A DNA stretch of 59,731 bases from contig CANTEG010000017.1 of NCBI GenBank assembly GCA_947652735.1, positions 1 to 59,731 on the forward strand, read 5' to 3'. This DNA comes from an uncultured Lachnospiraceae bacterium. Its GTDB lineage: Bacteria > Bacillota > Clostridia > Lachnospirales > Lachnospiraceae. The notes under the pieces were generated by a model, which was not told the DNA's origin, ran no database searches, and saw only the letters and a list, made by a program, of their open reading frames with translations. Made by a program: the position numbers and the translations under genes. Of the stretch, positions 8,941-40,420 are shown one piece after another. The first letter of the stretch is position 1; each line of letters starts with the position of its first letter.

Positions 8941-8969
8941 TTGACAAATTTATAACAAAGGGTCATAAT
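8941..8969 (+). promoter_or_regulatory. predicted promoter of pyrG-gltBD
   Basis: TTGACA (8941-8946) and CATAAT (8964-8969) are 17 nt apart, putting the start of transcription near 8976, only about 10 nt before a strong terminator hairpin. The same -35, spacer length and -10 recur before carA and purB. Confidence 0.7.
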
Positions 8970-8981
8970 AGTAAAAATGAA

Positions 8982-9025
8982 TGACAAAGGCGTCAGGAAT
9001 CGATGTGGTTTCTGACGCCTTTTTT
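8982..9025 (+). promoter_or_regulatory. pyrG leader attenuator: terminator with overlapping hexaloop hairpin
   Basis: A terminator stem of 11 perfect pairs (8986-8996 with 9012-9022), extended by three weaker inner pairs, is followed by T residues at 9020-9025 and lies 20 nt before the pyrG start codon. No gene in this orientation ends upstream (the neighbour is divergent), so it can only act on the pyrG transcript: it is an attenuator, not a gene-end terminator. Alternatively, TGAC (8982-8985) can pair with GTCA (8992-8995) around the six-base loop AAAGGC. That hairpin uses the 5' strand of the terminator and would prevent it. A loop of six with A at position 1 and G at position 4 is the signature of ANTAR-protein RNA targets. 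The usual second hairpin upstream is not evident. Confidence 0.65.
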
Positions 9026-9045: not shown

Positions 9046-10665
9046 ATGGCAATAAAATACGTTTTCGTTACGGGAGGCGTAGTGTCCGGCTTAGGAAAGG
9101 GAATAACGGCAGCATCCCTGGGACGTCTGCTTAAGGCAAGAGGCTACAAGGTTACCATGCAGAAATTTGACCCTTACATAAATGTTGATCCGGGAACCAT
9201 GAATCCGATTCAGCATGGGGAAGTATTTGTTACGGATGATGGAACAGAGACTGACCTTGATCTTGGACATTATGAGAGATTTATTGACGAGAGTCTTGAT
9301 AAAAATTCAAATGTAACGACTGGTAAAATTTACTGGTCTGTGCTGCAAAAGGAAAGACATGGAGATTACGGCGGCGGAACGGTTCAGGTCATTCCCCATG
9401 TGACAAATGAGATAAAAAGCAGATTTTATAATAAGGAAAATGAAGATAACAGAATTGTCATCATTGAGGTGGGCGGAACAGTAGGAGACATAGAAAGTCA
9501 GCCGTTTTTGGAGGCTATCAGACAGTTTCAGCATGATGTGGGACACAAAAATGCAATCCTCATCCATGTAACACTCATACCGTACCTTAAGGCGTCGGGA
9601 GAGTTAAAGACCAAGCCTACCCAGCAGAGTGTCAAGGAACTTCAGGGAATGGGACTTTGGCCTGATATTATAGTATGCAGAAGTGAGTATGAAATATCTG
9701 AGGAAATGAAAGGGAAAATCGCATTATTCTGCAATGTGCCGGTAAGCAATGTACTTCAAAATCTTGATGTTGAGTATTTATACGAGGCACCCCTTGCAAT
9801 GGAAAAGGAAAAGCTTGCCCATGTGGTATGCTCTGCGCTGGATATTCCGTGTCCTGAGCCTGATTTAGAGGATTGGATGAGCATGATAGAAAGCCTTCGC
9901 AATCCGAAGCATGAGGTTGACATTGCCATCGTAGGAAAATATATACAGCTCCATGATGCATATTTAAGTGTGGTCGAGGCATTAAAGCATGGCGGTATTG
10001 CAGCACATGCTTCCGTAAATATAAAATGGATTGACTCAGAGGATATTACGGAGGAAAATGTAACGTCAGTTCTTGATGGGATTGACGGTATTCTCATACC
10101 GGGAGGCTTTGGAATAAGAGGAACGGAGGGAAAGATTCTTGCAGTAAAATACGCAAGGGAAAACAAGGTGCCATTTTTGGGAATATGCCTTGGCATGCAA
10201 ATGGCAATTGTGGAGTACGCAAGAAACGTTGCAGGCTATGAGGGAGCAAACAGCATAGAGCTTGACCATGAAACAAACTATCCCGTCATTTCCCTGATGC
10301 CTGAGCAAAACGGCGTCACCGACAGAGGCGGAACCTTAAGGCTTGGAGCGTACCCATGCGTACTGAAAAAGGGAAGTCTTGCAGCAGCTCTTTATGGTAG
10401 TGAAAACATAAGTGAGAGGCACAGACACAGATATGAGGTCAACAATGATTTCAGGGATGTCTTAGAGAAAAAAGGAATGATATTTTCGGGACAGTCACCT
10501 GACGGAAGAATTGTGGAGATGCTTGAGCTTGAAAATCATCCATATTTTATTGCCACACAGGGACATCCCGAGTTTAAGTCAAGACCGAACAGGGCACATC
10601 CATTATTTAAAGGTCTGATAGAGAGTGCAGTAAAAACTCGTTCAAAAGGAGGAAACGATTTATGA
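9046..10665 (+). CDS. pyrG: CTP synthase
   Basis: A 539-residue enzyme of normal length that aminates UTP to CTP with glutamine and ATP. The synthetase domain opens with [13 protein letters not shown] (P-loop) and contains [15 protein letters not shown] and [12 protein letters not shown]. The glutamine amidotransferase domain (about 285-530) has the nucleophile in GICLGMQ (about Cys381) and the GHPEF histidine/glutamate pair. RBS TTAGGAGGAA is 7 nt before the ATG. Its stop overlaps the gltB start (ATGA), so pyrG and gltB are translationally coupled. Expression is predicted to be controlled by the leader terminator just upstream. Confidence 0.98.
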
Positions 10666-13600
10666 ATCAGAATCAGGGATTATACAGACAACAATTTGAA
10701 CATGATAACTGCGGTATAGGAGCAGTTATAAACAGCAAGGGAAAAAAGACGCACCAGACAGTGGAAAATGCATTGAAGATAGTTGAAAATCTGGAGCATC
10801 GCGCAGGTAAGGATGCAGAGGGTAAAACAGGCGATGGTGTAGGTATTTTGCTTCAGATATCACACAACTTTTTTAAGAAGGAATGTAAAAAGCTTAATAT
10901 AGAAATTGGTGATGAGAGGGAATACGGAATTGCCCAAATTTTCTTTCCGCAGAATGAGCTGAAACGCAATCAGGCAAAGAAAATGTTTGAGATAATTATA
11001 AACAAGGAGGGGCTTGAGCTTTTAGGCTACAGGGAGGTTTCGGTAAATCCTGATGTGCTTGGAAACAAGGCAAGACAGTGTATGCCTCACATCGTACAGG
11101 CATTTATTAAGAAACCTGAGCGTGTGGCAAAGGGACTTGAATTTGATAGAAAGCTTTACATAGCAAGACGAGAGTTTGAACAGTCAAACGACAATACATA
11201 CGTTGTTTCCATGTCAAGCAGGACAATTGTTTACAAGGGTATGTTTCTTGTTGGACAGTTAAGAACATTTTTCTCGGATTTGCAGGATGAGGCTTATGTG
11301 TCTGCCATTGCAATGGTACATTCCAGATTCAGTACAAATACAAATCCAAGCTGGGAGCGGGCACATCCGAACAGGTTTATTGTTCATAACGGTGAGATTA
11401 ATACCATACGGGGAAATGCGGATAAAATGCTTGCCCGTGAGGAGGCAATGGAATCGGAGCATTTAAAGGAACAGCTTCATAAGGTGCTTCCTGTAGTTGA
11501 TACGAGAGGCTCTGACTCAGCGATGTTGGATAACACATTAGAGTTTCTTGTGATGAGCGGTATGGAGCTTCCGCTTGCGGTTATGATAACAATACCTGAG
11601 CCTTGGGCAAACAATCAGACCTTAGACCAGGACGAGAGAGATTTTTATCAGTATTATGCCACTATGATGGAACCGTGGGACGGACCTGCATCCATTGTTT
11701 TTTCTGACGGTGATTTGGTGGGTGCAGTGCTTGACAGAAATGGTCTGCGCCCGTCCAGATATTATGTCCTGAAAAACGGTGACGTGGTTCTTGCTTCTGA
11801 GGTAGGTGTACTTGAAATTCCAGAGGAGGACATCGTTTTAAAGGAGAGACTCCATCCTGGAAAAATGCTTCTCATAGATACGGTAAACGGCAAGATTTTA
11901 CAGGATGAGGAGCTTAAGGAACGGTATACCACAAAGCAGCCTTACGGTGAATGGCTTGACAGTAACCTGCTTCATCTTAAGGACTTAAAAATTCCGAACA
12001 TCCGTATTGAAGCCTATGACGACAAAATGCAGAAACAGTTGCAAAAGGCGTTCGGATATACATATGAGGAATATAAAAATTCAATATACAACATGGCATT
12101 AAATGGCGGGGAAGCTATAGCGGCAATGGGTGTTGATACTCCGCTTGCAGCGTTGTCAAAGAAAAATCATTTACTCTTTGATTACTTTAAGCAGCTTTTT
12201 GCACAGGTTACAAATCCTCCGATTGATGCAATCAGGGAGGAAATTGTCACAAGCACAACTGTTTATGTAGGAAAGCAGGGCAATCTGCTTGAGGAAAAGG
12301 CTGAAAATTGTCAGGTGCTGAAAATCGAAAATCCGATTCTTACAAATACGGATATGCTCAAAATTAAAAACATGGATAGGGATGGCTTTCAGGTTGCCGT
12401 CATTCCGATTGTTTACTACAAGAGCACAAGGCTTGTCAGGGCAATAGACAGACTTTTCGTGGAAGTCGACAAGGCATATAAGGATGGTGCCAACATTGTG
12501 GTACTCTCCGACAGGGGTGTTGATGAAAATCATGTTCCAATTCCATCACTCCTTGCCGTATCCGCGGTGCATCAGCACTTGGTAAACACAAAGAAGCAGA
12601 CATCACTTGCACTTATCTTAGAGTCTGGTGAGCCAAGAGAGGTACATCATTTTGCAACACTTTTGGGATATGGTGCGGTTGCGGTCAATCCGTATCTGGC
12701 ACAGGATACAATAAAGGAGTTGATAGACGAAAACATACTTGACAAGGATTACTATGCGGCAGTGGCTGATTACAATGATGCAGTGCTTCACGGCATTGTT
12801 AAGATTGCATCTAAAATGGGTATTTCCACAATCCAGTCCTATCAGGGAGCAAAAATATTTGAGGCAATCGGTATCTCCTCTGATGTTGTTGACACATATT
12901 TTAATGGAACCGTAAGCAGGGTTGGTGGAATTACAATTGAGGATATCGAAAAACAGGTAGACGGCAGACATTCAAGGGCATTTGACCCCCTTGGACTTGA
13001 GACAGACCTTACATTAGATAGTCTTGGAAAGCATAAGAGGAGAAGCGGGGGCGAGGAGCACAGGTACAATCCCCAGACCATCCATATGCTTCAGCAGGCT
13101 ACATGGACAGGAAATTATGATTTATACAAGCAGTATGCACAGCTTATAGATGGAGAGGAAAGTGGATATTTAAGAAGTATGATGGACTTTGTATATCCTG
13201 AGAAGCAGATTCCTCTCGATGAGGTTGAGAGCGAGGATGAAATCGTGAAACGATTTAAGACAGGTGCCATGTCCTATGGTTCCATATCTGAGGAGGCACA
13301 TGAGACCCTTGCAATCGCAATGAATAACCTGCACGGAAAGTCAAATACCGGTGAGGGCGGCGAGAGTGACGAGCGTCTGGATTCGGCAGGAAGTAAGGTT
13401 GACAGATGCTCTGCAATCAAGCAGGTTGCGTCGGGAAGATTTGGTGTTACAAGCAGATACCTTGTAAGTGCAAAGGAAATACAGATAAAAATGGCACAGG
13501 GTGCGAAACCGGGAGAGGGCGGACATCTGCCTGCAAAGAAGGTTTATCCTTGGATTGCAAAGACAAGACATTCAACACCAGGCGTCAGTCTGATATCTCC

Positions 13601-15206
13601 TCCTCCACACCACGACATTTATTCCATTGAGGACTTGGCGGAGCTGATATATGACCTTAAAAATGCAAATACAGAGGCAGATATATCTGTGAAGCTTGTA
13701 TCAGAGGCAGGCGTGGGAACCGTAGCAGCGGGTGTTGCAAAGGCAGGAGCACAGGTTATTTTGATATCTGGCTATGACGGAGGTACAGGTGCTGCACCTG
13801 AAAGCTCTATTTACAACGCAGGACTTCCGTGGGAGATGGGACTTGCAGAGACACATCAGACACTCATAAAGAACGGTCTTAGAAACAGGGTAAAAATAGA
13901 GACGGACGGAAAGCTTATGAGCGGCCGTGACGTTGCAATAGCAGCACTTTTGGGTGCTGAGGAATTTGGATTTGCAACGGCACCCCTTGTAACCATGGGC
14001 TGTATTATGATGCGGGTTTGCAATTTGGATACATGTCCTGTGGGCGTGGCGACACAAAACCCTGAGCTTAGAAAGAGATTTAAGGGAAAACCTGAATACG
14101 TGGAAAACTTTATGCGGTTTATTGCAAGAGAGCTTCGTGAGTATATGGCAAAGCTTGGTGTGAGAACCATCGATGAGATGGTAGGACGCTCAGATTTGCT
14201 TAAGGTGAGAGAAAATTCTTCCCTTTCCATGGCACCGAAAATGGATTTGTCCGAAATACTTGCAAATCCGTTTCATGACGGAACAGAGCCTGTTATTTTT
14301 AACAAGGAGCTTGTGTATGATTTTGAGCTTGAAAAGACGCTTGACGAAAAGGTGCTTATGAAGAAGCTTGGCAAGGCTGCAAAGGAGGGAAGCAAGGCGT
14401 CCCTTGAAATAAAGGTTGGAAATACGGACAGAGCCTTTGGTACAATATTTGGAGCATTCATAACAAGAAATCATAAAGATGGACTTCCTGAGGATACGAT
14501 TACCGTTAACTGCATAGGTGCAGGCGGTCAGAGCTTCGGTGCATTTATACCTGCGGGACTTACCCTATCTCTTTGTGGAGATACAAACGATTATTTTGGC
14601 AAGGGTCTTTCAGGCGGAAAGCTAGCTGTGTTCCCGCCAAAGAACAGAGGCTATAAGGCAGAGGATAACATCATTGCAGGAAATGTGGCACTGTACGGAG
14701 CCACAAGCGGAAAGGCGTTCATAAACGGTGTCGCAGGTGAGCGGTTTGCCGTACGTAATTCGGGTGCATTTGCCGTTGTTGAGGGCGTGGGTGAGCATGG
14801 CTGCGAGTATATGACAGGCGGCAGGGTTGTAGTTCTTGGAAAGACAGGAAAGAACTTTGCAGCAGGTATGAGCGGCGGTATCGCTTATGTGCTTGACGAG
14901 GATAACCACCTTTATAGAAATCTGAACAAGGATATGATTTCCATTGAAAAGCTGGAGAATAAATATGATATTCAGGAGCTGAAAAGCCTGATTGAGGAGC
15001 ATGTTTCTGCAACTGGTTCCGAGCGGGGAAAATCAATACTTGGCACATGGGATGATTATATCGGGAAATTTAAGAAGATTATCCCGAACGACTATAAGAA
15101 GATGATTGCACTTTCATCAAAGCTGGAGGAAAAGGGCATGAGCACCGAGCAGGCACAGATGGAAGCATTTTATGAGAGCTTTGCAACAGGCAGGAAGGGG
15201 GAATAA
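10662..15206 (+). CDS. gltB: glutamate synthase large subunit (NADPH-type GOGAT alpha)
   Basis: A 1514-residue enzyme converting glutamine plus 2-oxoglutarate to two glutamates. The first 16 residues look like a propeptide; the predicted mature N-terminal nucleophile is Cys17 in HDNCGIG (class II amidotransferase, about 17-430). The central domain, the FMN-binding synthase domain ([33 protein letters not shown]) and the [3Fe-4S] cysteines ([15 protein letters not shown], about 1113-1124) follow in the usual order, ending with the GXGXG beta-helix domain ([10 protein letters not shown]). It starts with a 4-nt overlap with pyrG, an unusual pairing, and is followed after 3 nt by gltD. Confidence 0.98.
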
Positions 15207-15209
15207 AAA

Positions 15210-16664
15210 ATGGAAAACACTACCGTATCAAAATTTGAGGAGCCTTTAAAGAGAATCAAGCATTTTAACGAGTTCCATACCCCTGTATCACTGGAGAGGC
15301 AGCAGGAGCAGGGTGCAAAATGTATGGCGTGCGGTGTTCCGTTTTGCCAGAACGGACAGATGATAGGCGGCATGGTTTCAGGATGTCCGTTAAACAATCT
15401 GGTTCCTGAAACAAATAATCTTGTCTGCGGCGGGAATTTTTTGCAGGCATACGAGCGACTTGCAAAAACAAATAATTTCCCTGAGTTTACAAGCCGTGTA
15501 TGTCCTGCATTATGTGAGGCGGCATGTACATGTAATTTAAATGAGGAACCTGTAGAGACTAAAGAAAATGAACGTGCTATTATAGAAAATGCATATGCAA
15601 TGGAATGGGTAAAGCCAAATCCGCCTAAGGTAAGAACAGGAAAGAACGTTGCTGTTGTGGGAAGCGGTCCTTCAGGCATGGCGGCAGCAGTCCAGCTTAA
15701 CAAAAGGGGTCACATGGTTACTGTATTTGAACGTTCTGACAGAATCGGAGGACTTTTAAGGTACGGAATCCCGAACATGAAGCTGGACAAAAAGGTAATA
15801 GACAGAAGAATGACAATCATGGAGGCAGATGGCATTATATTTAAAACAGGTGTCAATGTGGGAGTTGACATTACGGCGGATGAATTAAGAAAACAGTTTG
15901 ACGCTGTTGTACTTACATGCGGGGCATCAAATCCGAGGGATATTAATGCCAAGGGCAGGGATGCAAAGGGAATTTATTTTGCAGTTGATTATCTTTCATC
16001 TGTGACAAAAAGCCTGCTTGATTCTAATTTTGCAGATGGCAAAGCCATTTCGGCAAAGGATAAAAACGTGATTGTCATAGGCGGTGGAGATACAGGTAAC
16101 GACTGTGTGGGAACTGCCGTAAGACAGGGAGCAAAATCTGTCACCCAGCTTGAGATGATGCCGAAGCCGCCTGTGGAAAGAACGGCAGAAAACCCATGGC
16201 CTGAGTGGCCAAGAGTGCTGAAAACTGATTACGGTCAGCAGGAGGCAATCGCTGTGTTTGGCAGCGACCCAAGAGTATATCAGACTACGGTACAGGAATT
16301 TATAAAGGATAAAAAGGGTAACCTTGAAAAAGTTAAGCTTGTAAGCCTTGAGCCTAAAAAGGACGAGAAAACAGGTAGAATGAACATGGTGCCTGTAGCA
16401 GGAAGCGAAAAGGAAGTCCCGGCAGAGCTTGTGCTGATTGCAGCAGGATTTCTAGGAAGTGAGAAATATGTCACCGATGCATTTAAGGTTCGTGTTGACG
16501 GCAGGACAAATGTTGAGACGACGGACCATGCCACAAGCGTTCCAAAGGTATTTGCGGCAGGCGACATGAGGCGCGGGCAGTCCCTTGTTGTCTGGGCAAT
16601 CAGGGAGGGCAGAGAGGCTGCTAAGGCGGTAGATGAGTTCCTGATGGGCTATACGAATTTATAA
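15210..16664 (+). CDS. gltD: glutamate synthase small subunit (GOGAT beta)
   Basis: A 484-residue flavoprotein that passes electrons from NAD(P)H to GltB. The N-terminal region carries the cysteines for two [4Fe-4S] clusters (CMACGVPFC, SGCPLNN, CPALCEAACTC; residues about 33-110). The FAD-binding motif VVGSGPSGMAAA is at about 148 and the NAD(P)H-binding motif VIGGGDTGNDC at about 290, with the closing GDMRRGQSLVVWAI typical of this family. It lies 3 nt downstream of gltB with GGAAGGGGG as RBS and ends the pyrG-gltB-gltD unit ahead of a strong terminator. Confidence 0.98.
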   Translation: MENTTVSKFEEPLKRIKHFNEFHTPVSLERQQEQGAKCMACGVPFCQNGQMIGGMVSGCPLNNLVPETNNLVCGGNFLQAYERLAKTNNFPEFTSRVCPALCEAACTCNLNEEPVETKENERAIIENAYAMEWVKPNPPKVRTGKNVAVVGSGPSGMAAAVQLNKRGHMVTVFERSDRIGGLLRYGIPNMKLDKKVIDRRMTIMEADGIIFKTGVNVGVDITADELRKQFDAVVLTCGASNPRDINAKGRDAKGIYFAVDYLSSVTKSLLDSNFADGKAISAKDKNVIVIGGGDTGNDCVGTAVRQGAKSVTQLEMMPKPPVERTAENPWPEWPRVLKTDYGQQEAIAVFGSDPRVYQTTVQEFIKDKKGNLEKVKLVSLEPKKDEKTGRMNMVPVAGSEKEVPAELVLIAAGFLGSEKYVTDAFKVRVDGRTNVETTDHATSVPKVFAAGDMRRGQSLVVWAIREGREAAKAVDEFLMGYTNL

Positions 16665-16945: not shown

Positions 16946-16974
16946 TTGACAAACCATCGAAAAAGTTTCATAAT
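16946..16974 (+). promoter_or_regulatory. predicted promoter of carAB-arcC-glnA-ANTAR
   Basis: TTGACA (16946-16951) and CATAAT (16969-16974) with a 17-nt spacer, matching the pyrG promoter in both hexamers and spacing although the spacers differ. A weaker TTGACT element near 17073 could give a second promoter downstream of the leader hairpin. Confidence 0.68.
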
Positions 16975-16985
16975 ATTATTGTTAA

Positions 16986-17028
16986 TGGCAAAGGGGTCAG
17001 AAAGCATTAGTTTTTTGACCCCTTTTTT
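16986..17028 (+). promoter_or_regulatory. carA leader attenuator: terminator with overlapping hexaloop hairpin
   Basis: A 14-bp terminator stem (16990-17003 with 17012-17025, one G-U pair) followed by T residues lies 109 nt before carA. As in pyrG, the 5' strand can instead form a small hairpin: TGGC (16986-16989) with GTCA (16996-16999) around the loop AAAGGG, again six bases with A1 and G4. The segment AATGRCAAAGGSGTCAG (R and S being the two variable positions) is shared by both leaders. Here a second small hexaloop hairpin, ATT/AAT around ATTGTT (16975-16986), lies just upstream, but it would straddle the predicted start of transcription. The hairpin could also double as the tRNA terminator. 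Confidence 0.6.
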
Positions 17029-17136
17029 GTTTAATAGCAAACAAATAGTTAAAATGATGGTTGACTTATTTTATATTTAGCCGATAAATAGGAAGTTGGT
17101 GCCTGTGTGGGTAACAACAAAGAAAGGAATACACCT

Positions 17137-18324
17137 ATGAAAGCATTTTTAATTCTTGAAGACGGTCAAGTTTTTACGGGTAAAAGCATTGGCGCAAGAA
17201 AAGAGGTAATCAGTGAGCTTGTGTTTAATACGTCCATGACGGGATATTTGGAGGTTCTTACAGACCCCTCCTATGCAGGTCAGGCTGTTTTGATGACGTA
17301 TCCGCTCATAGGAAATTACGGCGTGTGCCATGAGGATGAGGAGTCCATCAGACCGTGGCTTGACGGATATGTTGTCAGAGAGCTGTCGGGGACGGCAAGT
17401 AATTTCAGATGTGAGGACACCCTGTCAAATTTCTTAAAGCGGTTTGACATACCGGGCATATGCGGTATAGATACGAGACAGCTCACAAAAATTTTGCGTG
17501 AGAGCGGAACCATGAACTGTATGATAACTACCAATGAAAATTATAACTTGGTTGACATAATACCAAAGTTAAAGGAATATACTACAGGTCATGTTGTGGA
17601 GAAGGTTACATGCAGCGAAAAATATAGTTTGAAAGCCAAAAAGGTAGAGCCGAAAAAAATGACAGAAACAAAAGGAACATCGGATTTGGCAAGTACATCC
17701 CATATACATATGAGCGATAGCCAAACAACACAAAAAAATCAGGATAGCGTTAAAACGGTTGCTCTCCTGGACCTTGGGGCAAAGAAAAATATAGCAAAAT
17801 CCCTCGCAGAAAGAGGCTGTAACGTGACGGTTTATCCTGCCCATACAAAGGCGGAGGAAATACTTGCCGGGCATCCTGCCGGAATCATGCTCTCAAACGG
17901 ACCAGGTGACCCTGCCGTTTGTACGGATATTATTGCTGAGATAAAAAAGCTGTATGCCTCCGACATACCTATATTTGCAATATGTCTCGGTCATCAGCTT
18001 ATGGCACTTGCGACAGGAGCTGCAACAAAGAAAATGAAGTATGGACACAGGGGCGGCAACCATCCCGTCAAGGATTTGGAGACAGGAAGAGTTTATATTT
18101 CCTCACAAAATCACGGCTATGTGGTGGATACGGATTCCGTTGACGAAAATGTTGCAATTCCCGCATTTGTAAATGTAAATGACGGGACAAACGAAGGACT
18201 TAAGTATGTGGGCAAGAATATATTTACGGTGCAGTTTCATCCTGAGGCATGCCCCGGACCACAGGACTCGGAATATTTATTCGATAAGTTTATTGAAATG
18301 ATGGGAGGACATCAGGATGCCTAA
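17137..18324 (+). CDS. carA: carbamoyl-phosphate synthase small (glutaminase) subunit
   Basis: A 395-residue subunit that hydrolyses glutamine and channels ammonia to CarB. I place the start at the ATG at 17137 (MKAFLILEDGQVFTG, standard CarA opening, RBS AGAAAGGAA); an in-frame GTG at 17107 would add ten atypical residues. The N-terminal CarA domain (about 1-150) is followed by a low-complexity linker of about 40 residues (about 170-205) that is longer than usual, then a class I amidotransferase domain with nucleophile in ICLGHQLM (about Cys282) and FHPEACPGP at the end. It overlaps carB by 8 nt. Confidence 0.97.
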   Translation: MKAFLILEDGQVFTGKSIGARKEVISELVFNTSMTGYLEVLTDPSYAGQAVLMTYPLIGNYGVCHEDEESIRPWLDGYVVRELSGTASNFRCEDTLSNFLKRFDIPGICGIDTRQLTKILRESGTMNCMITTNENYNLVDIIPKLKEYTTGHVVEKVTCSEKYSLKAKKVEPKKMTETKGTSDLASTSHIHMSDSQTTQKNQDSVKTVALLDLGAKKNIAKSLAERGCNVTVYPAHTKAEEILAGHPAGIMLSNGPGDPAVCTDIIAEIKKLYASDIPIFAICLGHQLMALATGAATKKMKYGHRGGNHPVKDLETGRVYISSQNHGYVVDTDSVDENVAIPAFVNVNDGTNEGLKYVGKNIFTVQFHPEACPGPQDSEYLFDKFIEMMGGHQDA

Positions 18325-21300
18325 GAATACGAATATAAAAAAGGTTTTGATGCTTGGCTCTGGTCCGATTATCATCGGTCAGGCTGCGGAGTTTGACTAT
18401 GCGGGAACACAGGCATGTCGTTCCCTGAAGGAAGAGGGTATTGAGGTCGTACTCCTGAATTCTAATCCTGCCACCATCATGACAGATAAAAATATAGCTG
18501 ACAGGGTTTACATAGAACCGCTTACAGTTGAGGTTGTGGAACAACTCATATTAAAGGAGAAGCCTGACAGTGTTCTTCCCACACTTGGGGGACAGGCAGG
18601 TCTTAACCTTGCCATGGAACTTGAAGAAAGTGGCTTTTTACAGGAACATGGGGTAAGGTTGATAGGAACAACAGCACTCACAATTAAAAAGGCGGAGGAC
18701 AGACAGGCATTTAAGGACACCATGGAAAAAATAGGTGAGCCCATAGCCCCGTCACTTGTTGTAAAGACAGTTGAGGACGGCGTTGCATTTACAAATACAA
18801 TCGGTTACCCTGTTGTCCTGCGGCCTGCATATACTTTAGGCGGAAGCGGAGGCGGAATTGCCTACAATCAGGAGCAGCTTATCGAGATACTGGAAAATGG
18901 CTTGAGACTTTCAAGAGTAGGAGAGGTGCTTGTTGAAAGATGCATAGCAGGCTGGAAAGAAATAGAGTATGAGGTTATGCGTGACGGTGCGGGGAACTGT
19001 ATTACGGTCTGCAACATGGAAAATATTGACCCTGTAGGTGTTCATACAGGTGATAGTATCGTTGTTGCCCCATCGCAGACCTTGGGTGACAAGGAGTATC
19101 AGATGCTCCGAAGCTCAGCCTTAAATATTATTACCGAGCTTGGGATAACAGGTGGATGTAACGTACAGTACGCCCTTAATCCTGACAGCTTTGAGTATTG
19201 CGTTATCGAGGTAAATCCGAGAGTGTCACGCTCATCGGCACTTGCCAGTAAGGCAACGGGATATCCGATTGCAAAGGTTGCGGCAAAGATTGCACTTGGA
19301 TATAATCTTGACGAGATAACAAATGCAATTACAAAGAAAACATACGCATGCTTTGAGCCGATGCTCGATTACTGCGTCGTCAAGATACCGAGACTTCCAT
19401 TTGATAAATTCATAAGTGCAAAGAGAACGCTCACCACGCAGATGAAAGCCACAGGTGAGGTTATGAGTATATGCAACAACTTTGAGGGGGCACTTATGAA
19501 AGCCATACGGTCACTGGAACAGCATGTGGACGGACTGATGTCATATGACTTTTCCGAGCTTTCCAGGGATGAAATGAAAAAGCAGCTTACCATAGTGGAT
19601 GACATGAGACTCTGGAGAATTGCCCAGGCGTTTAGAATGGGAATTGCCCCTGAGGAAATCAGCGACATTACAAAAATAGACAGATGGTTTATCGATAAAA
19701 TAGCAAATATCACGGACATGGAATTTAAGCTTCAGACAAGAGAGCTTGACGAGACACTTTTAAGGGAAGCCAAGCGGATGGAATTTCCTGACTACATGAT
19801 TGGAAAGTTTAACGGCAAGAGCGAAGAATATGTCAAGGGACTTCGGGAGAAGTTTGGCATAAAGGCAGTATATAAGATGGTAGATACCTGTGCGGCAGAG
19901 TTTGAGGCGGCAACGCCGTACTATTACTCTGTGTACGGTGGAGAAAATGAGGCAGTGTCGGAAAGCGGCAGGAAAAAGGTTCTTGTTTTAGGTTCAGGGC
20001 CGATACGAATCGGACAGGGCATCGAGTTTGATTTTTGTAGTGTCCATTGTACATGGGCGTTTGCCAATGAGGGATATGAGACAATTATCGTAAACAATAA
20101 TCCTGAGACGGTAAGTACGGATTTTGATATAGCGGATAAGCTTTATTTTGAGCCGCTTACCCCAGAGGATGTTGAAAATATAGTGAACAATGAAAAGCCG
20201 GATGGTGCTGTCGTACAGTTTGGCGGACAGACGGCAATAAAGCTTACCGAGGCATTGATGAAGATGGGTGTGCCTATCCTTGGTACATCAGCAGAAAATG
20301 TTGATGCGGCGGAGGACAGGGAGCTATTTGATGAAATACTTGAAACGTGCGGGATAAAAAGACCAAAGGGAAAAACGGTATTTACCGCAAAGGAGGCAAA
20401 GCAGGCGGCAAATGAGCTTGGTTACCCTGTTTTGGTAAGACCATCCTATGTACTTGGCGGTCAGGGGATGCAGATAGCAATTAATGATGAGGACATTGAA
20501 CAGTACATTGGAATTATCAACAAAATTGCACAGGAGCATCCAATCCTTGTTGATAAATACCTTGTTGGTAAGGAGATAGAGGTTGATGCCGTATGCGATG
20601 GCGAGGATATTATAATACCTGGTATTATGGAGCATATTGAGCGTGCGGGAATCCATTCAGGCGATAGTATATCAGTGTATCCTGCGAAAACAATCAGTAA
20701 GGCGGCAAAGGCAAAAATAGAGGAATACACAAAAAGGCTTGCAAATGCTCTCCATGTCATTGGAATGATAAACATACAGTTTATCGTATGTGACGATGAG
20801 GTGTATGTCATAGAGGTCAATCCGCGGTCAAGCCGTACCGTGCCGTATATTAGCAAAGTAACGGGAGTGCCGATTGTCACACTTGCCGCAAAGGCAATTA
20901 TGGGTCATAGGCTTAAGGATATGGGATATACTCCGGGACTGCTGCCTGAGTCACCGTATTATGCAATTAAGATGCCTGTATTTTCCTTTGAGAAAATAAG
21001 GGGTGCCGATATAAGTCTTGGACCTGAAATGAAATCCACAGGTGAATGTCTCGGAATCGCAAAAGATTTTAACGAGGCACTTTACAAGGCATTTCTTGGA
21101 GCAGGAATCAATCTTCCGAAGCATAAGAACATGATTATGGCTGTGCGGGAGGAAGAAAAGGAGGCGGCTGTCCGAATTGGAAGAAGATTTGAGGCGTTGG
21201 GCTATAGAATATATGCTACTCTTGGAACTTACAGGGCACTGACTGCTGCAGGCATTAAGGCAATCAGGACAAATAAGATAGAACAGGATTCACCGAACCT

Positions 21301-21514
21301 GATGGACCTTATATTGGGACATAAAATAGACCTTGTAATAGACATTCCTTCACAGGGTGTAGAGCACGCAAAGGACGGCTTTATAATAAGACGAAACGCA
21401 ATTGAGACAGGTGTAAATGTAATAACTGCGGCAGATACTGCCGAGGCTCTTGTTACAAGCCTTGAAAATACCGCAGGTGATAAGCTTACTTTGGTTGACA
21501 TATCAAAGATTTAA
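18317..21514 (+). CDS. carB: carbamoyl-phosphate synthase large subunit
   Basis: A 1065-residue subunit of full length. It has two homologous ATP-grasp halves, each beginning with a dinucleotide-like motif (LGSGPIIIGQAAEFDY at about 13 and LGSGPIRIGQGIEFDF at about 556), each with VxRPxYxLGGxG, and a C-terminal MGS-like allosteric domain (about 930-1065, with ALGYRIYATLGTYRAL). It makes carbamoyl phosphate for pyrimidines and arginine from bicarbonate, ATP and CarA-derived ammonia. No pyr or arg genes adjoin it; its neighbours are carbamate kinase and glutamine synthetase, which points to nitrogen-responsive control. Confidence 0.98.
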   Translation: MPKNTNIKKVLMLGSGPIIIGQAAEFDYAGTQACRSLKEEGIEVVLLNSNPATIMTDKNIADRVYIEPLTVEVVEQLILKEKPDSVLPTLGGQAGLNLAMELEESGFLQEHGVRLIGTTALTIKKAEDRQAFKDTMEKIGEPIAPSLVVKTVEDGVAFTNTIGYPVVLRPAYTLGGSGGGIAYNQEQLIEILENGLRLSRVGEVLVERCIAGWKEIEYEVMRDGAGNCITVCNMENIDPVGVHTGDSIVVAPSQTLGDKEYQMLRSSALNIITELGITGGCNVQYALNPDSFEYCVIEVNPRVSRSSALASKATGYPIAKVAAKIALGYNLDEITNAITKKTYACFEPMLDYCVVKIPRLPFDKFISAKRTLTTQMKATGEVMSICNNFEGALMKAIRSLEQHVDGLMSYDFSELSRDEMKKQLTIVDDMRLWRIAQAFRMGIAPEEISDITKIDRWFIDKIANITDMEFKLQTRELDETLLREAKRMEFPDYMIGKFNGKSEEYVKGLREKFGIKAVYKMVDTCAAEFEAATPYYYSVYGGENEAVSESGRKKVLVLGSGPIRIGQGIEFDFCSVHCTWAFANEGYETIIVNNNPETVSTDFDIADKLYFEPLTPEDVENIVNNEKPDGAVVQFGGQTAIKLTEALMKMGVPILGTSAENVDAAEDRELFDEILETCGIKRPKGKTVFTAKEAKQAANELGYPVLVRPSYVLGGQGMQIAINDEDIEQYIGIINKIAQEHPILVDKYLVGKEIEVDAVCDGEDIIIPGIMEHIERAGIHSGDSISVYPAKTISKAAKAKIEEYTKRLANALHVIGMINIQFIVCDDEVYVIEVNPRSSRTVPYISKVTGVPIVTLAAKAIMGHRLKDMGYTPGLLPESPYYAIKMPVFSFEKIRGADISLGPEMKSTGECLGIAKDFNEALYKAFLGAGINLPKHKNMIMAVREEEKEAAVRIGRRFEALGYRIYATLGTYRALTAAGIKAIRTNKIEQDSPNLMDLILGHKIDLVIDIPSQGVEHAKDGFIIRRNAIETGVNVITAADTAEALVTSLENTAGDKLTLVDISKI

Positions 21515-21534: not shown

Positions 21535-22464
21535 ATGGAGAAGAAAAAGGTAGTAATTGCCCTTGGACACAGAGCAATGGGCACGACTCTCCCTGAGCAG
21601 AAAATCGCCACTAAAAATACGGCAAAAAAGATAGTAAGTCTTGTCAAGGAGGGAGCAGAAATAGTAATCACACACGGAAATGCACCACAGATTGGCATGA
21701 TTCATACAGCAATGAATGAATTTGCAAAGGCACATCCTGAGTATACGTGTGCCCCGATGTCGGTATGCTCGGCAATGAGTCAGGGATACATAGGGTTTGA
21801 CCTGCAAAATGCCATAAGGGCAGAGCTTATCAAGCAGGGAATATATAAGCCTGTATGTACGGTGATTACACAGGTTGTTGTTGACCCGTACGATGATGCA
21901 TTTGCTGAGCCTGTAAAGAAAATCGGCAGGCTTCTCACGGATGAGGAGGCACTTTTTGAGGAGGAAAAGGGCAACTATGTGGCGAAGGAGAAAGATGGCT
22001 ACAGAAGAATCGTGGCTGCACCAAAGCCGCAGAAAATAGTTGAGATAGATTCAATTAGGGCACTTTTGGATGCAGGGAATATTGTGATTGCCTGCGGAGG
22101 AGGCGGAATACCTGTGCTTGAGCAAAAGGCAGAGCTTAAGGGGGCAGGTGCGGTTATAGAAAAGGATTATACATGCGGGATTATGGCAGAGGAGCTTAAT
22201 GCAGACGAGCTTTTAATTCTTACAAGTGTTCACAATGTGGCTGTAAATTATGAGACGGAGGAAGAAATCATACTTGAAAATATTTCTCTTTCTGATGCAA
22301 GGAAATATATTGAGGGCGGGGAGTTTGAGGAGAACACCATGCTGCCGAAGATGGTTGCATCAGCATCCTTTGTTGAAAAAAGACAGGGCAGGAGAGCAAT
22401 TATCACATCTATCGATAAGGCATATGAAGGTTATATGGGTCAGGAAGGAACAATAATCAGTTAA
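21535..22464 (+). CDS. arcC: carbamate kinase
   Basis: A 309-residue amino-acid-kinase-fold enzyme of usual length, interconverting carbamoyl phosphate plus ADP with carbamate (ammonia and CO2) plus ATP. Recognisable blocks are IVITHGNAPQIG, CAMSQGYIG, TQVVVDPYDDAF, CGGGGIPV and ELLILTSVHNVAVN. It begins 21 nt after carB and ends 25 nt before glnA, with no promoter or terminator visible in either gap, so it belongs to the same transcript. The arginine deiminase genes arcA and arcB are absent. In this setting it may drain or recycle carbamoyl phosphate according to ammonia supply (inference). Confidence 0.96.
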   Translation: MEKKKVVIALGHRAMGTTLPEQKIATKNTAKKIVSLVKEGAEIVITHGNAPQIGMIHTAMNEFAKAHPEYTCAPMSVCSAMSQGYIGFDLQNAIRAELIKQGIYKPVCTVITQVVVDPYDDAFAEPVKKIGRLLTDEEALFEEEKGNYVAKEKDGYRRIVAAPKPQKIVEIDSIRALLDAGNIVIACGGGGIPVLEQKAELKGAGAVIEKDYTCGIMAEELNADELLILTSVHNVAVNYETEEEIILENISLSDARKYIEGGEFEENTMLPKMVASASFVEKRQGRRAIITSIDKAYEGYMGQEGTIIS

Positions 22465-22488: not shown

Positions 22489-23814
22489 ATGGGAAATTAC
22501 AGTAAGGCAGATATACTACAGTTAGTGGACGAGGAAGATGTGCAATTTATCAGACTTCAGTTTACTGATATGTACGGCAACCTGAAAAATGTTGCCATAC
22601 CTGCAACAAGAATTTTGACAGCTATGGAAAATAAATGTAAGGTGGATTTTGCATCTATTGCAGGATTTAGCCAGACGGAGGAAATTTCACTTTATTTAAG
22701 ACCTGATTTAGACACATTCTCCATACTTCCGTGGAGACCGCAGCAGGGCAAGGTGGCGAGGTTTATATGTGACGTTTTGAATGAGGACGGAACGGAATAT
22801 GAGTCCAATGCCAGATATATATTAAAAAAGGTGATGGAGGCGGCAAAAAAACAGGGCTATACGCTGCTCGTTAATCCTGAGTGCGAATTTTTCCTGTTTC
22901 ACGCAGACGAAAATGGACTGCCTACAACCGTAACCCACGAGAAAGCAGGATATCTTGACACTTCTCCTGTGGATTTAGGTGAAAATACAAGGCGAGACAT
23001 CATCATGGCAATGGAGGATATGGGATATATCATAGCGTCTTCCCACCACGAGATAGCACCCGCACAGCATGAGATAGATTTTACCTACGAAAATCCACTT
23101 GCAACGGCAGACAAAATAATGACATTTAAAACGGCGGTTGGGACAATAGCAAAAAAGTATGGGCTTCATGCAACCTTTATGCCGAAACCGAGAATGGATG
23201 AAAATGGTTCGGGTATGCACATTAAAATGAGGCTTATGAAAGATGGAAAGAATGTTTTTTCCGATGAAAATGGAAATTTAAGCAGTGATGGAATGGCATT
23301 TATGGCAGGAATTTTAAAGTACATACAGGGCATGACTGCTATTTTTAATCCACTTGTCAATTCCTACAAGAGACTTGTTCCGGGTTTTGAAGCACCATCT
23401 GAGGTGACATGGTCAAGGAGGCAGCGGAACACGCTGATTCATGTGGGAAGTATGCTTGAGGGTGGTGTGGAGCTTGAGCTTAGAAGTCCTGATTCAGCAT
23501 CCAATCCATACCTTGTATTTGCTCTTTGCCTTGCAGCAGGCATGGATGGTATCAATAACAAGCTTGAAGCACCAAGTGAGCTTGTGGAAGATATAAGAAA
23601 TTTAGATGAATATGAGAAGCTGGATAAAGGAATTGAACTCCTGCCTGAGAATTTAGGGGAAGCAATTATGGCAATGAGCAAAGAAATGCTTGTGACGGAT
23701 GTAATAGGAGAAGACCTTGTTAAAAGCTATATAAGGGCAAAACGAACAGAGTGGAAAGGGTACCTGAAACAGGTTTCAGATTGGGAAATATCAAGATATT
23801 TGTATCGCATTTAA
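22489..23814 (+). CDS. glnA: glutamine synthetase, type I
   Basis: A 441-residue enzyme, the length of the short GSI-alpha form of Firmicutes, forming glutamine from glutamate, ammonia and ATP. It opens with the beta-grasp domain (VQFIRLQFTDMYGNLKNVAIP) and has the metal-binding NPECEFFLF, the HEIAPAQHEID segment, NGSGMHIKMRL and the substrate loop YKRLVPGFEAPSEVTWS. The loop that in adenylylated enzymes carries NLYDLP is different here (ELLPENL), in keeping with control by feedback or protein partners rather than adenylylation. RBS AAGGAGG. The ANTAR gene follows after 18 nt, a pairing known in Clostridia (glnA-nitR). Confidence 0.97.
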   Translation: MGNYSKADILQLVDEEDVQFIRLQFTDMYGNLKNVAIPATRILTAMENKCKVDFASIAGFSQTEEISLYLRPDLDTFSILPWRPQQGKVARFICDVLNEDGTEYESNARYILKKVMEAAKKQGYTLLVNPECEFFLFHADENGLPTTVTHEKAGYLDTSPVDLGENTRRDIIMAMEDMGYIIASSHHEIAPAQHEIDFTYENPLATADKIMTFKTAVGTIAKKYGLHATFMPKPRMDENGSGMHIKMRLMKDGKNVFSDENGNLSSDGMAFMAGILKYIQGMTAIFNPLVNSYKRLVPGFEAPSEVTWSRRQRNTLIHVGSMLEGGVELELRSPDSASNPYLVFALCLAAGMDGINNKLEAPSELVEDIRNLDEYEKLDKGIELLPENLGEAIMAMSKEMLVTDVIGEDLVKSYIRAKRTEWKGYLKQVSDWEISRYLYRI

Positions 23815-23832: not shown

Positions 23833-24387
23833 ATGAGTTCAATTTTAATCGTTCTGCCAAAACTTGATGAAGCAAAAAAAATACAGAAAATCTTGAACAA
23901 TCACGGCTACCCGGAGGTTTTTTCTTATAACATGGCGGCAAATGTATTGCAGGCGGCACAGGATATGGGTACAGGGGTAGTCATAAGTGCATATAAGCTT
24001 AGTGATATGTTTTACCTTGATTTAAGGGATGGTCTGCCAAGGGGTTTTGAGTTGATTTTAATCGGCTCTGCCAGTACTGTGTCAGGTGCTGGTTCAGGTG
24101 TACTTTCCCTTGCTACACCGCTTCGGGTCGGTGACCTTGTGAGCACGGTGGACATGGTTCTCGGACAGATTGAAAGGCAGCAGGGAAAAAGAAAAAAGCC
24201 TGCAAAGAAACGAACGGAGCAGGAAGAAAATTATATTAAAAATGCAAAATACCTCCTCATGGACAGGAATCATTTGTCCGAGGAGGAGGCATTTCGGTAC
24301 ATTCAAAAGTGCAGTATGGATAACAGCACTAATATGGTGGAAACTGCACAGATGATATTGACGCTTATGTATCAGGGAGATGTTTAG
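23833..24387 (+). CDS. ANTAR-domain RNA-binding antiterminator with degenerate receiver
   Basis: A 184-residue protein. Residues 1-112 have a receiver-like fold, but the acidic pair near the N-terminus is replaced by LP (ILIVLPKLDEA) and the phospho-acceptor position reads ISAYKLSDM (Ala53 instead of Asp), so phosphorylation is unlikely. A basic linker (about 117-128) leads to an ANTAR domain (about 130-182) with the family pattern AKYLLMDRNHLSEEEAFRYI. ANTAR proteins (EutV, NasR, NitR) bind small hexaloop hairpins in nascent leaders and block terminators. With glnA upstream and two hexaloop-bearing attenuators in the same island, it is the obvious candidate regulator. It converges on the ABC-F gene with a 4-nt overlap. 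Confidence 0.92.
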   Translation: MSSILIVLPKLDEAKKIQKILNNHGYPEVFSYNMAANVLQAAQDMGTGVVISAYKLSDMFYLDLRDGLPRGFELILIGSASTVSGAGSGVLSLATPLRVGDLVSTVDMVLGQIERQQGKRKKPAKKRTEQEENYIKNAKYLLMDRNHLSEEEAFRYIQKCSMDNSTNMVETAQMILTLMYQGDV

Positions 24388-34178: not shown

Positions 34179-34202
34179 GTGTTGGTAAACATTAAAGATT
34201 AC

Positions 34203-34367
34203 ATAGTAGAGGTGCAGCATTCAAAAGTACCCTGTGGGATGTCTTAGAGCAGTTGAGCATAGGGAAAAGGGGATGTTGCCGAAGGAAAGTATTTTCTAAG
34301 ACGTATTTTCCTGGTTGTGCAGTTAAAAGCTGTATGACTGTCATCGCAGGATGGAGCGCTACTTGTA
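34203..34367 (+). promoter_or_regulatory. lysine riboswitch (L box) aptamer
   Basis: The conserved L-box blocks appear in order: AGAGGTGC, an AGTA box, AGGGAAAAGGGGATG, GCCGAAGGAAAG, an internal pairing region, and GGAGCGCTACT whose CTACT closes the P1 stem with AGTAG at 34204-34208. Lysine binding is expected to favour the terminator immediately downstream and so switch off dapA, the committed step of the lysine/diaminopimelate pathway. Boundaries are approximate. Confidence 0.93.
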
Positions 34368-34387
34368 GAATAAATAAGATTTTATTT

Positions 34388-34537: not shown

Positions 34538-35437
34538 ATGGCAATTTTCACAGGTGCAGGAGTAGCAATAACAACACCATTCAATGAAGATGGTTCGGTG
34601 GATTACGATTCATTCAGGGAGCATATTGAGTATCAGATAGAAAAAGGTACGGATAGTATCATTGTCTGTGGCACAACGGGAGAGGCATCAACCCTTACCC
34701 ATGAGGAGCATCTTGAATGTATCAGATTTTGTGTGTCAGTTGTAAATAAGAGGGTTCCTGTAGTGGCTGGAACAGGCTCAAACTGTACGGATACGGCGAT
34801 ATATCTTTCAAGAGAGGCACAAAAGTCAGGTGCGGATGCACTTCTTGTCGTTACACCTTATTACAATAAGGCAACACAAAAAGGGCTTATCGCTCATTTT
34901 ACGGCAATTGCAGAAAGTGTTTCACTTCCAATCATTTTATATAATGTCCCGGGAAGAACAGGAGTTAATATTCTTCCTGAAACAGCAGTAACACTTGCAA
35001 AAACAGTAGAAAACATAGTGGCAATAAAGGAAGCATCAGGAAATATTTCACAGGTTGCAAAGCTTGCTGCACTTGCAGATGGATGCATAGATATTTATTC
35101 AGGAAATGATGATCAGGTTATCCCGATTCTTTCACTTGGCGGAAAGGGCGTTATATCGGTTCTTTCAAATGTGGCACCAAAGGAGACACATGATATGGTT
35201 GCAAAGTATCTTGAGGGAGACGTTAAGGGGGCGCTTGACATACAGCTTAAAGCAATGCCGCTTTGTGATGCACTGTTCTGCGAGGTAAATCCTATTCCTG
35301 TCAAAAAGGCAGTTTCCCTTATCGGCTACGGAACTGGAAAACTAAGAATGCCGCTTACCGACATTGAGGAGGCAAATGAGACAAAGCTTGTAAAAGCAAT
35401 GAAGGACTTCGGAATCAAGCTGGCGGCGGAAATGTAA
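34538..35437 (+). CDS. dapA: 4-hydroxy-tetrahydrodipicolinate synthase
   Basis: A 299-residue class I aldolase condensing pyruvate with aspartate semialdehyde, the first step of the diaminopimelate/lysine branch. Visible residues: TTGEASTL (substrate hydroxyls), YYNKATQKG and YNVPGRTG (proton relay and arginine) and the Schiff-base lysine in AIKEASGN. Length is standard. RBS GAGGAGG. It is controlled by the upstream lysine riboswitch; the 5' leader after the riboswitch also carries palindromic repeat copy A. dapB follows after 73 nt. Confidence 0.98.
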   Translation: MAIFTGAGVAITTPFNEDGSVDYDSFREHIEYQIEKGTDSIIVCGTTGEASTLTHEEHLECIRFCVSVVNKRVPVVAGTGSNCTDTAIYLSREAQKSGADALLVVTPYYNKATQKGLIAHFTAIAESVSLPIILYNVPGRTGVNILPETAVTLAKTVENIVAIKEASGNISQVAKLAALADGCIDIYSGNDDQVIPILSLGGKGVISVLSNVAPKETHDMVAKYLEGDVKGALDIQLKAMPLCDALFCEVNPIPVKKAVSLIGYGTGKLRMPLTDIEEANETKLVKAMKDFGIKLAAEM

Positions 35438-39547: not shown

Positions 39548-40366
39548 ATGAAATTGAAGAATAGTGTAAACGCTTTTAAAGCACTTTACAACAAACTCGA
39601 TGTCGACAAATACAAAAAACTCACAAAAAAATACGTAGGAAAATATTACAAACAGGCGACTTCTATAGCAGTAGTTGCTACACTTGCAATTGTATGTACT
39701 GCAACCGCTATTACAAGGCAGGTAAATGCCAATGAAGCAGCGGGAGTTATGATTACCGTGTCAGATGTGGCAGCGGGACATGAACCGTTTAGCGGAAATA
39801 CATTTGATGTAGCATCAATTTCTTATAATGAGATGCTGGACGTGACGAACGAGACAAAGCAGCTTACACAGCTTGAAAAGTCAGAGAAGCAGATAGAGAA
39901 AATACTTGAATCAAGACCGCAGAGCAGAAAAGAGCAGGCAGTTATTGACCAGCTTACCGCAACAACGAGCAGTGCACCTGAGGTTTCAAGTAAGCCGGAG
40001 GAGAGCAGTCAGGCACCAACAACTGTTCCTACTGTTGTAACATTTGCGGATGAGAATGGCAACTATGAATATGTGGGTGAATTTACATTAACAGCCTACT
40101 GTCCATGTACGATTTGCTGTGGACAGTGGAGTAACATGACAAATCCGACAACTGCAAGCGGAACGACTGCAACAGCAGGAAGAACAATTGCTGCTGACAC
40201 GTCAAAGTTCCCATTTGGAACAAGACTTATGATTAACGGACAGATATATACAGTGGAAGATACAGGTGGAGCCGTAGTAGGAAACAGAATTGATATATTC
40301 TTTAATTCACATCAGGAAGCACTTAACTTTGGTTTGAGAACAGCATCCGTATATATTGTAAAGTAA
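39548..40366 (+). CDS. 3D-domain cell-wall protein (putative peptidoglycan-active)
   Basis: A 272-residue exported or anchored protein. A basic N-terminus (1-36) and one hydrophobic segment (about 38-56, ending in NANE) are followed by a Ser/Pro/Thr/Glu-rich linker (about 110-155) and a C-terminal 3D domain (about 163-272) with FTLTAYCPC, the GRTIAAD block and VEDTGGAVVGNRIDIFF, containing the aspartates that name the domain. 3D domains share the double-psi barrel of MltA lytic transglycosylases and occur in YabE/Rpf-like and YuiC-type wall proteins. A wall-remodelling role is inferred. It ends in a strong terminator. Confidence 0.88.
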   Translation: MKLKNSVNAFKALYNKLDVDKYKKLTKKYVGKYYKQATSIAVVATLAIVCTATAITRQVNANEAAGVMITVSDVAAGHEPFSGNTFDVASISYNEMLDVTNETKQLTQLEKSEKQIEKILESRPQSRKEQAVIDQLTATTSSAPEVSSKPEESSQAPTTVPTVVTFADENGNYEYVGEFTLTAYCPCTICCGQWSNMTNPTTASGTTATAGRTIAADTSKFPFGTRLMINGQIYTVEDTGGAVVGNRIDIFFNSHQEALNFGLRTASVYIVK

Positions 40367-40371
40367 TAAGC

Positions 40372-40420
40372 AGGGTTGTTTCATTAGGAAAGATTTTTCC
40401 TGATGTAGCAGCCCTTTATT
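40372..40420 (+). terminator. intrinsic terminator after the 3D-domain gene
   Basis: A long stem of 20 pairs (40372-40391 with 40396-40415, several of them G-U) is followed by a short T-rich tail. Confidence 0.8.

Follow-up and report, generated by a model that had tools for sequence, protein, structure and literature searches.

The pyrG and carA operons of an uncultured Lachnospiraceae bacterium are each preceded by a small hexaloop hairpin that shares the 5' strand of an intrinsic terminator, and comparison with related leaders confirmed that this hairpin is real. We consider it quite probable that the two leaders are minimal attenuators in which an ANTAR protein would antiterminate the operons through a single hexaloop at the 5' end of the transcript, as part of a glutamine regulon. 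Extended to the order (Lachnospirales, judged by its named members), the proposal is still favored, with less assurance: ANTAR antitermination would operate through one hexaloop made by the ~20 nt at the 5' end of the transcript, with no recruitment hairpin, and would control a glutamine regulon composed of glutamine synthetases and the glutamine-consuming PyrG, CarA, GltB, and PurF. Judged from their sequences, the leaders appear to represent a new form of ANTAR antitermination that controls a glutamine regulon.

Two operons on the forward strand of the window (the whole 59,731-nt stretch of DNA that was analyzed) are concerned. The first consists of pyrG (CTP synthase, a glutamine amidotransferase; 9046 to 10665; PF06418 and PF00117), gltB (glutamate synthase large subunit; 10662 to 15206), and gltD (small subunit; 15210 to 16664; TIGR01317). 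The second consists of carA (carbamoyl-phosphate synthase small subunit; listed as an open reading frame at 17107 to 18324, with a more likely start at the in-frame ATG at 17137, which follows AGGAA), carB (large subunit; 18317 to 21514), an arcC-like carbamate kinase gene (21535 to 22464; TIGR00746, below its cut-off) placed between carB and glnA, glnA (type I glutamine synthetase; 22489 to 23814; TIGR00653), and the gene of an ANTAR protein with a pseudo-receiver and an ANTAR domain (23833 to 24387), the proposed hexaloop binder.

The pyrG promoter (8941 to 8969) has TTGACA at 8941 to 8946, a 17-nt spacer, and CATAAT at 8964 to 8969, and the transcript is expected to start near 8976. Twelve nucleotides 3' of the promoter lies the predicted antiterminator hairpin (8982 to 8995), with TGAC at 8982 to 8985, the loop AAAGGC at 8986 to 8991, and GTCA at 8992 to 8995, and it runs into the terminator (8989 to 9025; stem 8989-8999/9009-9019, T6 tract 9020 to 9025). 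The carA promoter (16946 to 16974) has TTGACA at 16946 to 16951 and CATAAT at 16969 to 16974 with the same 17-nt spacer. Here the predicted antiterminator hairpin (16986 to 16999), 11 nt 3' of the promoter, is composed of TGGC at 16986 to 16989, the loop AAAGGG at 16990 to 16995, and GTCA at 16996 to 16999, followed by the terminator (16993 to 17028; stem 16993-17003/17012-17022, T6 tract 17023 to 17028). The preliminary description had given both hairpins with these letters and coordinates and had assigned them to the terminator's 5' strand; both points stand, with the overlap falling in 8989 to 8999 and 16993 to 17003. Because this strand is shared, hairpin and terminator are mutually exclusive.

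Folded alone, the hairpins had energies of -3.1 kcal/mol (pyrG) and -2.4 kcal/mol (carA), equaled by 13 and 32 of 200 shuffles, respectively. The terminator folds were much stronger (-24.9 and -23.8 kcal/mol), and an antiterminator would thus depend on help from outside. A scan of both strands of the window for hexaloop hairpins with G at loop position 4 (G4) that overlap a terminator gave nine matches, and an AAAGG loop occurred in pyrG and carA only; the hairpin at 40372 was rejected as an ordinary gene-end terminator, the open reading frame ending at 40366. The genome contains the exact 14-mer TGRCAAAGGNGTCA three times. The third copy (L001:1501-1514, equal to G000:C14:67908) lies at the beginning of a tRNA transcript that has no terminator, and its stem was kept in just 2 of the 12 loci read, own genome included, so it is probably a chance occurrence; most relatives at this site retain AAAGGTGT or AAGGTGT without the 5' arm. 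With a third, chance-like copy present, and since single sites prove little, the two window leaders alone are thin evidence. The excess over chance comes from comparison, namely the frequency of the hairpin in the pyrG leaders of the genus, its compensatory stems, and the terminator control, each given below.

The search for pyrG covered 61 genomes, the source genome among them, and 21 loci of the genus were fetched, 20 of them with a readable upstream region. The hairpin was present in 17 of these 20 leaders and absent from G006, G025, and G035; the ANTAR protein was found in all 17 genomes with the hairpin and was not found in those three. The pyrG stems vary (TGAC/GTCA, TGGC/GTCA, TGAAGC/GCTTCG, TCGAC/GTCGG, and ATTTGAC/GTCAAAT), and across relatives the arms covary (TGAC/GTCA, GAAGC/GCTTC, GAAC/GTTC, and AAGGC/GTCTT) around a constant AANGGN loop and closing C-G pair. 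In an alignment of 14 distinct leaders (A1; 13 pyrG leaders and the window carA leader), all 56 cells of the four pairs can pair and three of the four pairs have changes on both sides, while sliding the partner out of register reduces pairing to 23-52%; another alignment (A3) contains 49 both-side cells, where shuffling gives 11.2 on average. Both alignments took their rows from a scan that requires the stem; all 17 pyrG leaders of the genus passed it. In five ANTAR-bearing genomes of the genus (G012, G018, G026, G029, and G032), the 320 nt 5' of pyrG have the character of coding sequence, and pyrG thus seems to lie inside an operon there; the element was found elsewhere, at gltB in G026 and G032 and at GSIII in G012 and G018, and was not found in G029. 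None of nine pyrG leaders of other families (L053 to L061, with only 62 nt upstream in L060) had the element, and six of those genomes carry ANTAR. No pyrG match was obtained in 11 genomes of the genus (G003, G005, G009, G010, G013, G017, G019, G024, G030, G031, and G033), eight of which also had no ANTAR match; this lack of a match may reflect divergence or search loss.

The position of the hairpin is nearly fixed. Where a promoter could be recognized, the arm starts 10-13 nt downstream of the -10 box in 38 of 46 leaders from the genus and 6-15 nt downstream of it in 21 of 27 from Lachnospiraceae; the distance is 17-35 nt in 5 and 6 leaders of these sets, respectively. Transcription usually starts ~7 nt after the -10 box, so roughly the first 20 nt of the transcript would make up the hairpin. 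With only about 5-6 nt preceding it from such a start, one hexaloop would have to suffice. Alternatively, ANTAR binding may be right and the true start may lie further upstream, so that a first hexaloop is transcribed and the classical two-hairpin mode applies. The leaders with 17-35 nt between -10 box and arm fit this alternative, as do the sister-family leaders with a second hexaloop described below, but it is unlikely given the consensus promoters and near-fixed spacing and given that, of the 73 leaders with a promoter, 11 leave at least 12 nt of presumed transcript 5' of the hairpin and a single one has an A1/G4 hexaloop (A at loop position 1, G at position 4) of at least three pairs there. 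Fixed letter and stem rules were used throughout these scans for an upstream first hairpin (P1).

In the window leaders, no second hexaloop upstream (P1, which in the two-hexaloop motif of Ramesh 2012 has a linker of about 5-12 nt) was found, given the presumed starts. The first hairpin that had been suggested for carA (ATT-ATTGTT-AAT, 16975 to 16986) begins on the base directly 3' of the -10 box (16969 to 16974), which should leave its 5' arm outside the transcript, and we no longer regard it as a candidate. The lack of a first hairpin had been seen as the weak point of the ANTAR reading; the lack itself is borne out, but it is the usual state in this group and not a local defect.

Outside the family, 48 further matches of the order model, three of them from f1, were read. 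The terminator-side hairpin was found in 37, and the remaining 11, G042 and G099 among them, were set aside as having no four-pair stem with G4. Of 28 leaders in families other than f22, 17 (in f1, f2, f8, f11, f16, f17, and f18) have the hairpin 5-13 nt behind a -10 box with a promoter score of at least 9.5, versus none of nine in f22. In this sister family, the terminator-side hairpin was readable in nine leaders, and four of these carry another hexaloop upstream of it, with linkers of 10-21 nt: ATTGGGC-AAAGAA-GTCCAAT before GSIII in G176 (linker 10), a GAAGAA loop before GSIII in G165 (linker 21), an AATGGC loop in G186 (linker 20), and a GAAGAA loop in G159 (linker 16). Outside f22, G226 and G125 passed the same scan, the case in G125 being a tandem attenuator. 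Such tandem attenuators comprise three hexaloop-terminator units in L259 of G125 (equal to L278 2041-2149, minus strand) and two units each in L260 and L270 (L279 1481 and 1537), in the genomes G168 and G215, the last before GSIII.

We also characterized the product of 23833 to 24387. This 184-aa protein, the sole ANTAR protein found in the genome, has the PF03861 ANTAR domain at 130-176 (54.9 bits against a cut-off of 27.3). A profile of 68 relatives matched full-length EutV (6wsh, E 8.4e-14), Rv1626, NasR, AmiR, and CheY. The structure model (pLDDT 91.7, pTM 0.63) predicts a receiver fold, a long helix, and a three-helix ANTAR domain, and the first Foldseek match was RNA-bound EutV (6ww6, E 1.9e-9, TM 0.52). 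The 50 rows of VIA-align are mostly receiver domains, and the absence of EutV among them carries no weight. No Asp is present at positions 50-53 in any of the 68 proteins, and D54 of EutV aligns at 53; the domain is therefore a pseudo-receiver. Since the phosphate-accepting Asp is missing, a protein partner may act on the receiver in an AmiR-like control, perhaps glutamine synthetase, which we offer as a tentative guess.

The RNA-contact positions of EutV, as given in the passages on RNA contacts of Walshe 2022 (PMC8934654), were mapped by hand onto the alignment. The equivalents of K149, E160, and M172 are invariant in the 68 proteins, and that of Y164 is F in the window protein (H in 46, Y in 12, and F in 10 of the 68). 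At the positions equivalent to R142, K143, K147, R168, N173, R175, and R177, the window protein has other residues, the R168 position being an invariant Q and the N173 position an invariant D among the 68. A triple Ala mutant of EutV at N173, R175, and R177 showed no binding. With K149, E160, and M172 kept and the other contacts changed, the G4 pocket looks conserved and the remaining RNA grip rebuilt. A second ANTAR type with a different N-terminus exists in part of the genus (L073, L075, L079, and L083; genomes G029, G026, G018, and G032); among these genomes, AATGGC loops occur at GSIII in three and at gltB leaders in two.

The co-occurrence of motif and protein was also examined. Among 37 genomes of the genus, 23 had both, one ANTAR only, one the motif only, and 12 neither (Fisher 8.8e-8, a value that overstates certainty because related genomes are not independent, as does the order value below). 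The cut for the motif was E ≤ 0.01; G031 (21.3 bits, below the Pfam cut-off) was counted as without ANTAR, and G025, with a hexaloop match at model E 0.011, just past the cut, as having neither. The genome with ANTAR only (G029) is 64% complete and that with the motif only (G007) 71%. In the order sample of 196 genomes, taken as Lachnospirales from locus titles of which most but not all are Lachnospiraceae, 68 had both, two the motif only, 83 ANTAR only, and 43 neither (Fisher 8.6e-8). ANTAR was thus found in 68 of the 70 motif-bearing genomes, and the matches in the two others, G042 and G099, had no four-pair G4 stem when read. No model match at E 0.01 was obtained in 83 of the 151 ANTAR-bearing genomes, with 30 candidates scored per genome. 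In both sets, the models used to find the loci had been derived from the element itself. A factor other than ANTAR, either another RNA-binding protein or a small ligand, could bind the antiterminator; the stem-contact residues of EutV are not kept, and ANTAR binding to the hexaloop is a prediction. We judge this very unlikely, since the loop letters and the six-base size are those of ANTAR targets, the motif co-occurs with ANTAR, and the ANTAR gene itself lies inside a regulated operon.

In 56 promoter-proximal hexaloops collected with no condition on letters, part of them at loci found with a model of the element, A1 was present in 55, A2 in 56, G4 in 55, and the closing C-G pair in 56. The A1 exceptions are L036 (GAAGGG) and, from the terminator control described below, L191 (GAAGGT), and two more with three pairs only were read by eye (L203, GAGGAC; L212, GAGGGT); the single leader without G4 is L215 (AAGAGC). 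Conservation of A1 and G4 in related leaders had been proposed as a test of the hairpin; G4 is conserved, with the reservation that it is also held by the terminator stem and is thus partly confounded, whereas A1 is not strictly so. This pattern agrees with EutV, in which, according to the structural passages of Walshe 2022 (PMC8934654), G4 makes a base-specific contact and A1 makes none. Among small terminator-overlapping hairpins of 80 named loci, A1 together with G4 was found in 34 of 84 six-base loops, compared with 6 of 43 four-base, 2 of 34 five-base, 5 of 58 seven-base, and 2 of 61 eight-base loops.

The top four pairs of the 56 hexaloops contain 14 wobbles, all with G on the 5' side and U on the 3' side. 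TGAC-N6-GTCA, a palindrome directly behind a promoter, might instead be a DNA operator near the start site, bound by a repressor. This is highly improbable: the wobbles keep RNA symmetry but not DNA symmetry, the conserved part is the non-palindromic loop, and, within one genome, the arms of different targets are entirely unlike (TGAC/GTCA at pyrG, AAAGC/GCTTT at GSIII).

To return to the hexaloop as an ANTAR target, a covariance model built from the leaders (R1) was run on the 37 genomes of the genus with 150 candidates scored per genome. It gave 41 matches, read in 40 fetched stretches, and 37 of these have a G4 hexaloop of at least three pairs; the other four (L153, L155, L156, and L158) do not and were rejected. 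The elements precede carA in four further genomes and GSIII in many genomes of the genus, including our own at C4:31278. Other targets are gltB, purF, and genes for a family 3 solute-binding protein, a PucR-like regulator, and a class III aminotransferase, among others. In G025 (87% complete), in which no ANTAR gene was found, a hexaloop leader with a five-pair stem (L154:1131-1174) precedes genes for an AmiS/UreI transporter and a CN-hydrolase, which recalls amiE/AmiR.

The 80 named loci, whose titles mostly indicate Lachnospiraceae (Blautia, Lacrimispora, Lactonifactor, and others), were fetched by ANTAR protein and are the best 80 of 248 confirmed, from at least 594 stretches. They contain 28 distinct AANGG elements, which precede glnA (12), pyrG (7), purF (3), gltB (2), GSIII (1), carA (1), and unrecognized genes (2), a tally that favors ANTAR neighbors because the loci are centered on the ANTAR gene. 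Within 400 nt upstream of the glnA genes next to ANTAR, an AANGG hairpin of at least four pairs was found in 34 of 79; the 45 without one include operon-internal genes and variant loops. Pyrimidine-sensing attenuation, of which the PyrR leader and CTP-dependent slippage at pyrG are the types, would account for pyrG and carAB as pyrimidine genes, but it has next to no chance of being correct, as neither leader matched Rfam at the gathering score, neither has a G run at the predicted start, and the same element stands before GSIII, glnA, gltB, and purF.

As a control for the terminator, all terminators of the 80 named loci and the window whose 5' strand begins with [AG][AG]NGG were compared. The hexaloop stem was present in 24 of 32 promoter-proximal cases versus 7 of 134 others. 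Six of these seven have AANGG or GAAGG loops, five of them before pyrG or glnA, and two of the eight promoter-proximal cases without the stem are readings of the carA leader in a shifted register. That the hexaloop is a meaningless by-product of terminator letters (AAAGG...CCTTT), as its overlap with the A tract and GG and the chance copy at the tRNA might suggest, has a negligible probability in view of this control, of the 5' arm that lies outside the terminator yet covaries, and of the AATGGC loops that break A-tract pairing. The ANTAR-type hairpin is the best-supported reading of the leaders, through covariation, loop letters, terminator exclusion, gene content, and co-occurrence with ANTAR.

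The mechanism that we propose is as follows. Transcription would start about 5-6 nt before the hairpin, and by default, the RNA would fold into the intrinsic terminator and stop ahead of the gene. When active, the ANTAR protein encoded 3' of glnA would grip the single A-A-N-G-G-N hexaloop, with G4 flipped out above the closing C-G pair, and this grip on roughly the first 20 nt would hold the 5' strand of the terminator. RNA polymerase would then read into pyrG-gltBD and carAB-arcC-glnA-ANTAR, so that the predicted direction of the effect is activation by the protein. Together with GSIII, which is encoded elsewhere in the genome, both operons would form a glutamine supply-and-use regulon, and the ANTAR gene would itself be regulated through the carA leader.

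Several features recall known ANTAR systems. As described for EutV/eut of Enterococcus faecalis in passages of two papers (PMC3369931, PMC8934654), an A1/G4 hexaloop overlaps the 5' strand of the terminator; the closing C-G pair is shared with the first eutP hairpin, going by the mutant positions named in Ramesh 2012 (PMC3369931), and the ANTAR protein has a receiver-like N-terminus. In contrast to eut, which has P1 and P2 with a constrained linker, one hexaloop lies at the 5' end of the transcript from the predicted start, and unlike EutV, the receiver has no phospho-acceptor and several RNA contacts are changed. AmiR of Pseudomonas aeruginosa, which acts on amiE, is likewise an ANTAR protein with a pseudo-receiver, according to the part of Stewart and van Tilbeurgh 2012 (PMC3369936) that describes it; what sets it apart is that AmiC holds AmiR and that amiE carries two hexaloops. 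The target passages of Ramesh 2012 (PMC3369931) list glutamate synthase and glutamine synthetase genes, for instance in Desulfotomaculum, under terminator-overlapping hexaloops, and they do not name pyrG, carA, or purF. The genome search described there targeted two-hairpin motifs and would therefore miss single hexaloops. A literature search, mostly of open-access papers, returned no report of single-hexaloop antitermination or of this glutamine regulon. NitR/GlnR of Clostridium saccharobutylicum is a glnA-linked ANTAR regulator whose gene follows glnA.

In the eutP passages of Ramesh 2012 (PMC3369931), both hairpins, A1 and G4 of each loop, and the linker length all matter. As described in the binding sections of Walshe 2022 (PMC8934654), the EutV dimer holds a single hexaloop at any one moment, and each hairpin by itself is bound roughly as well as the pair; antitermination nonetheless needs both in the passages of the two papers (PMC3369931, PMC8934654). 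How EutV can bind a single hexaloop and still require a pair for antitermination is, going by Walshe 2022 (PMC8934654), unsettled in the ANTAR field; that paper also suggests that sites with one hexaloop may occur in settings free of the time limit set by a transcribing polymerase. The window-type leaders resemble a naturally occurring form with one hairpin that functions despite this time limit. A natural family that apparently works with one 5'-end hexaloop makes the question testable on ~50-nt templates. The order-wide reading, if true, would overturn the two-hexaloop rule for ANTAR antitermination and would reveal a route from the two-hairpin form that is present in some sister-family leaders. 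It would also mean that a predicted RNA-run nitrogen and glutamine regulon with a pseudo-receiver regulator exists in a group that includes common gut bacteria (Blautia and others), a regulon that any search demanding two hairpins would overlook.

Elsewhere in the window, an ordinary lysine riboswitch (RF00168, 112 bits) was identified at 34199 to 34369, upstream of the dihydrodipicolinate synthase gene (34538 to 35437).
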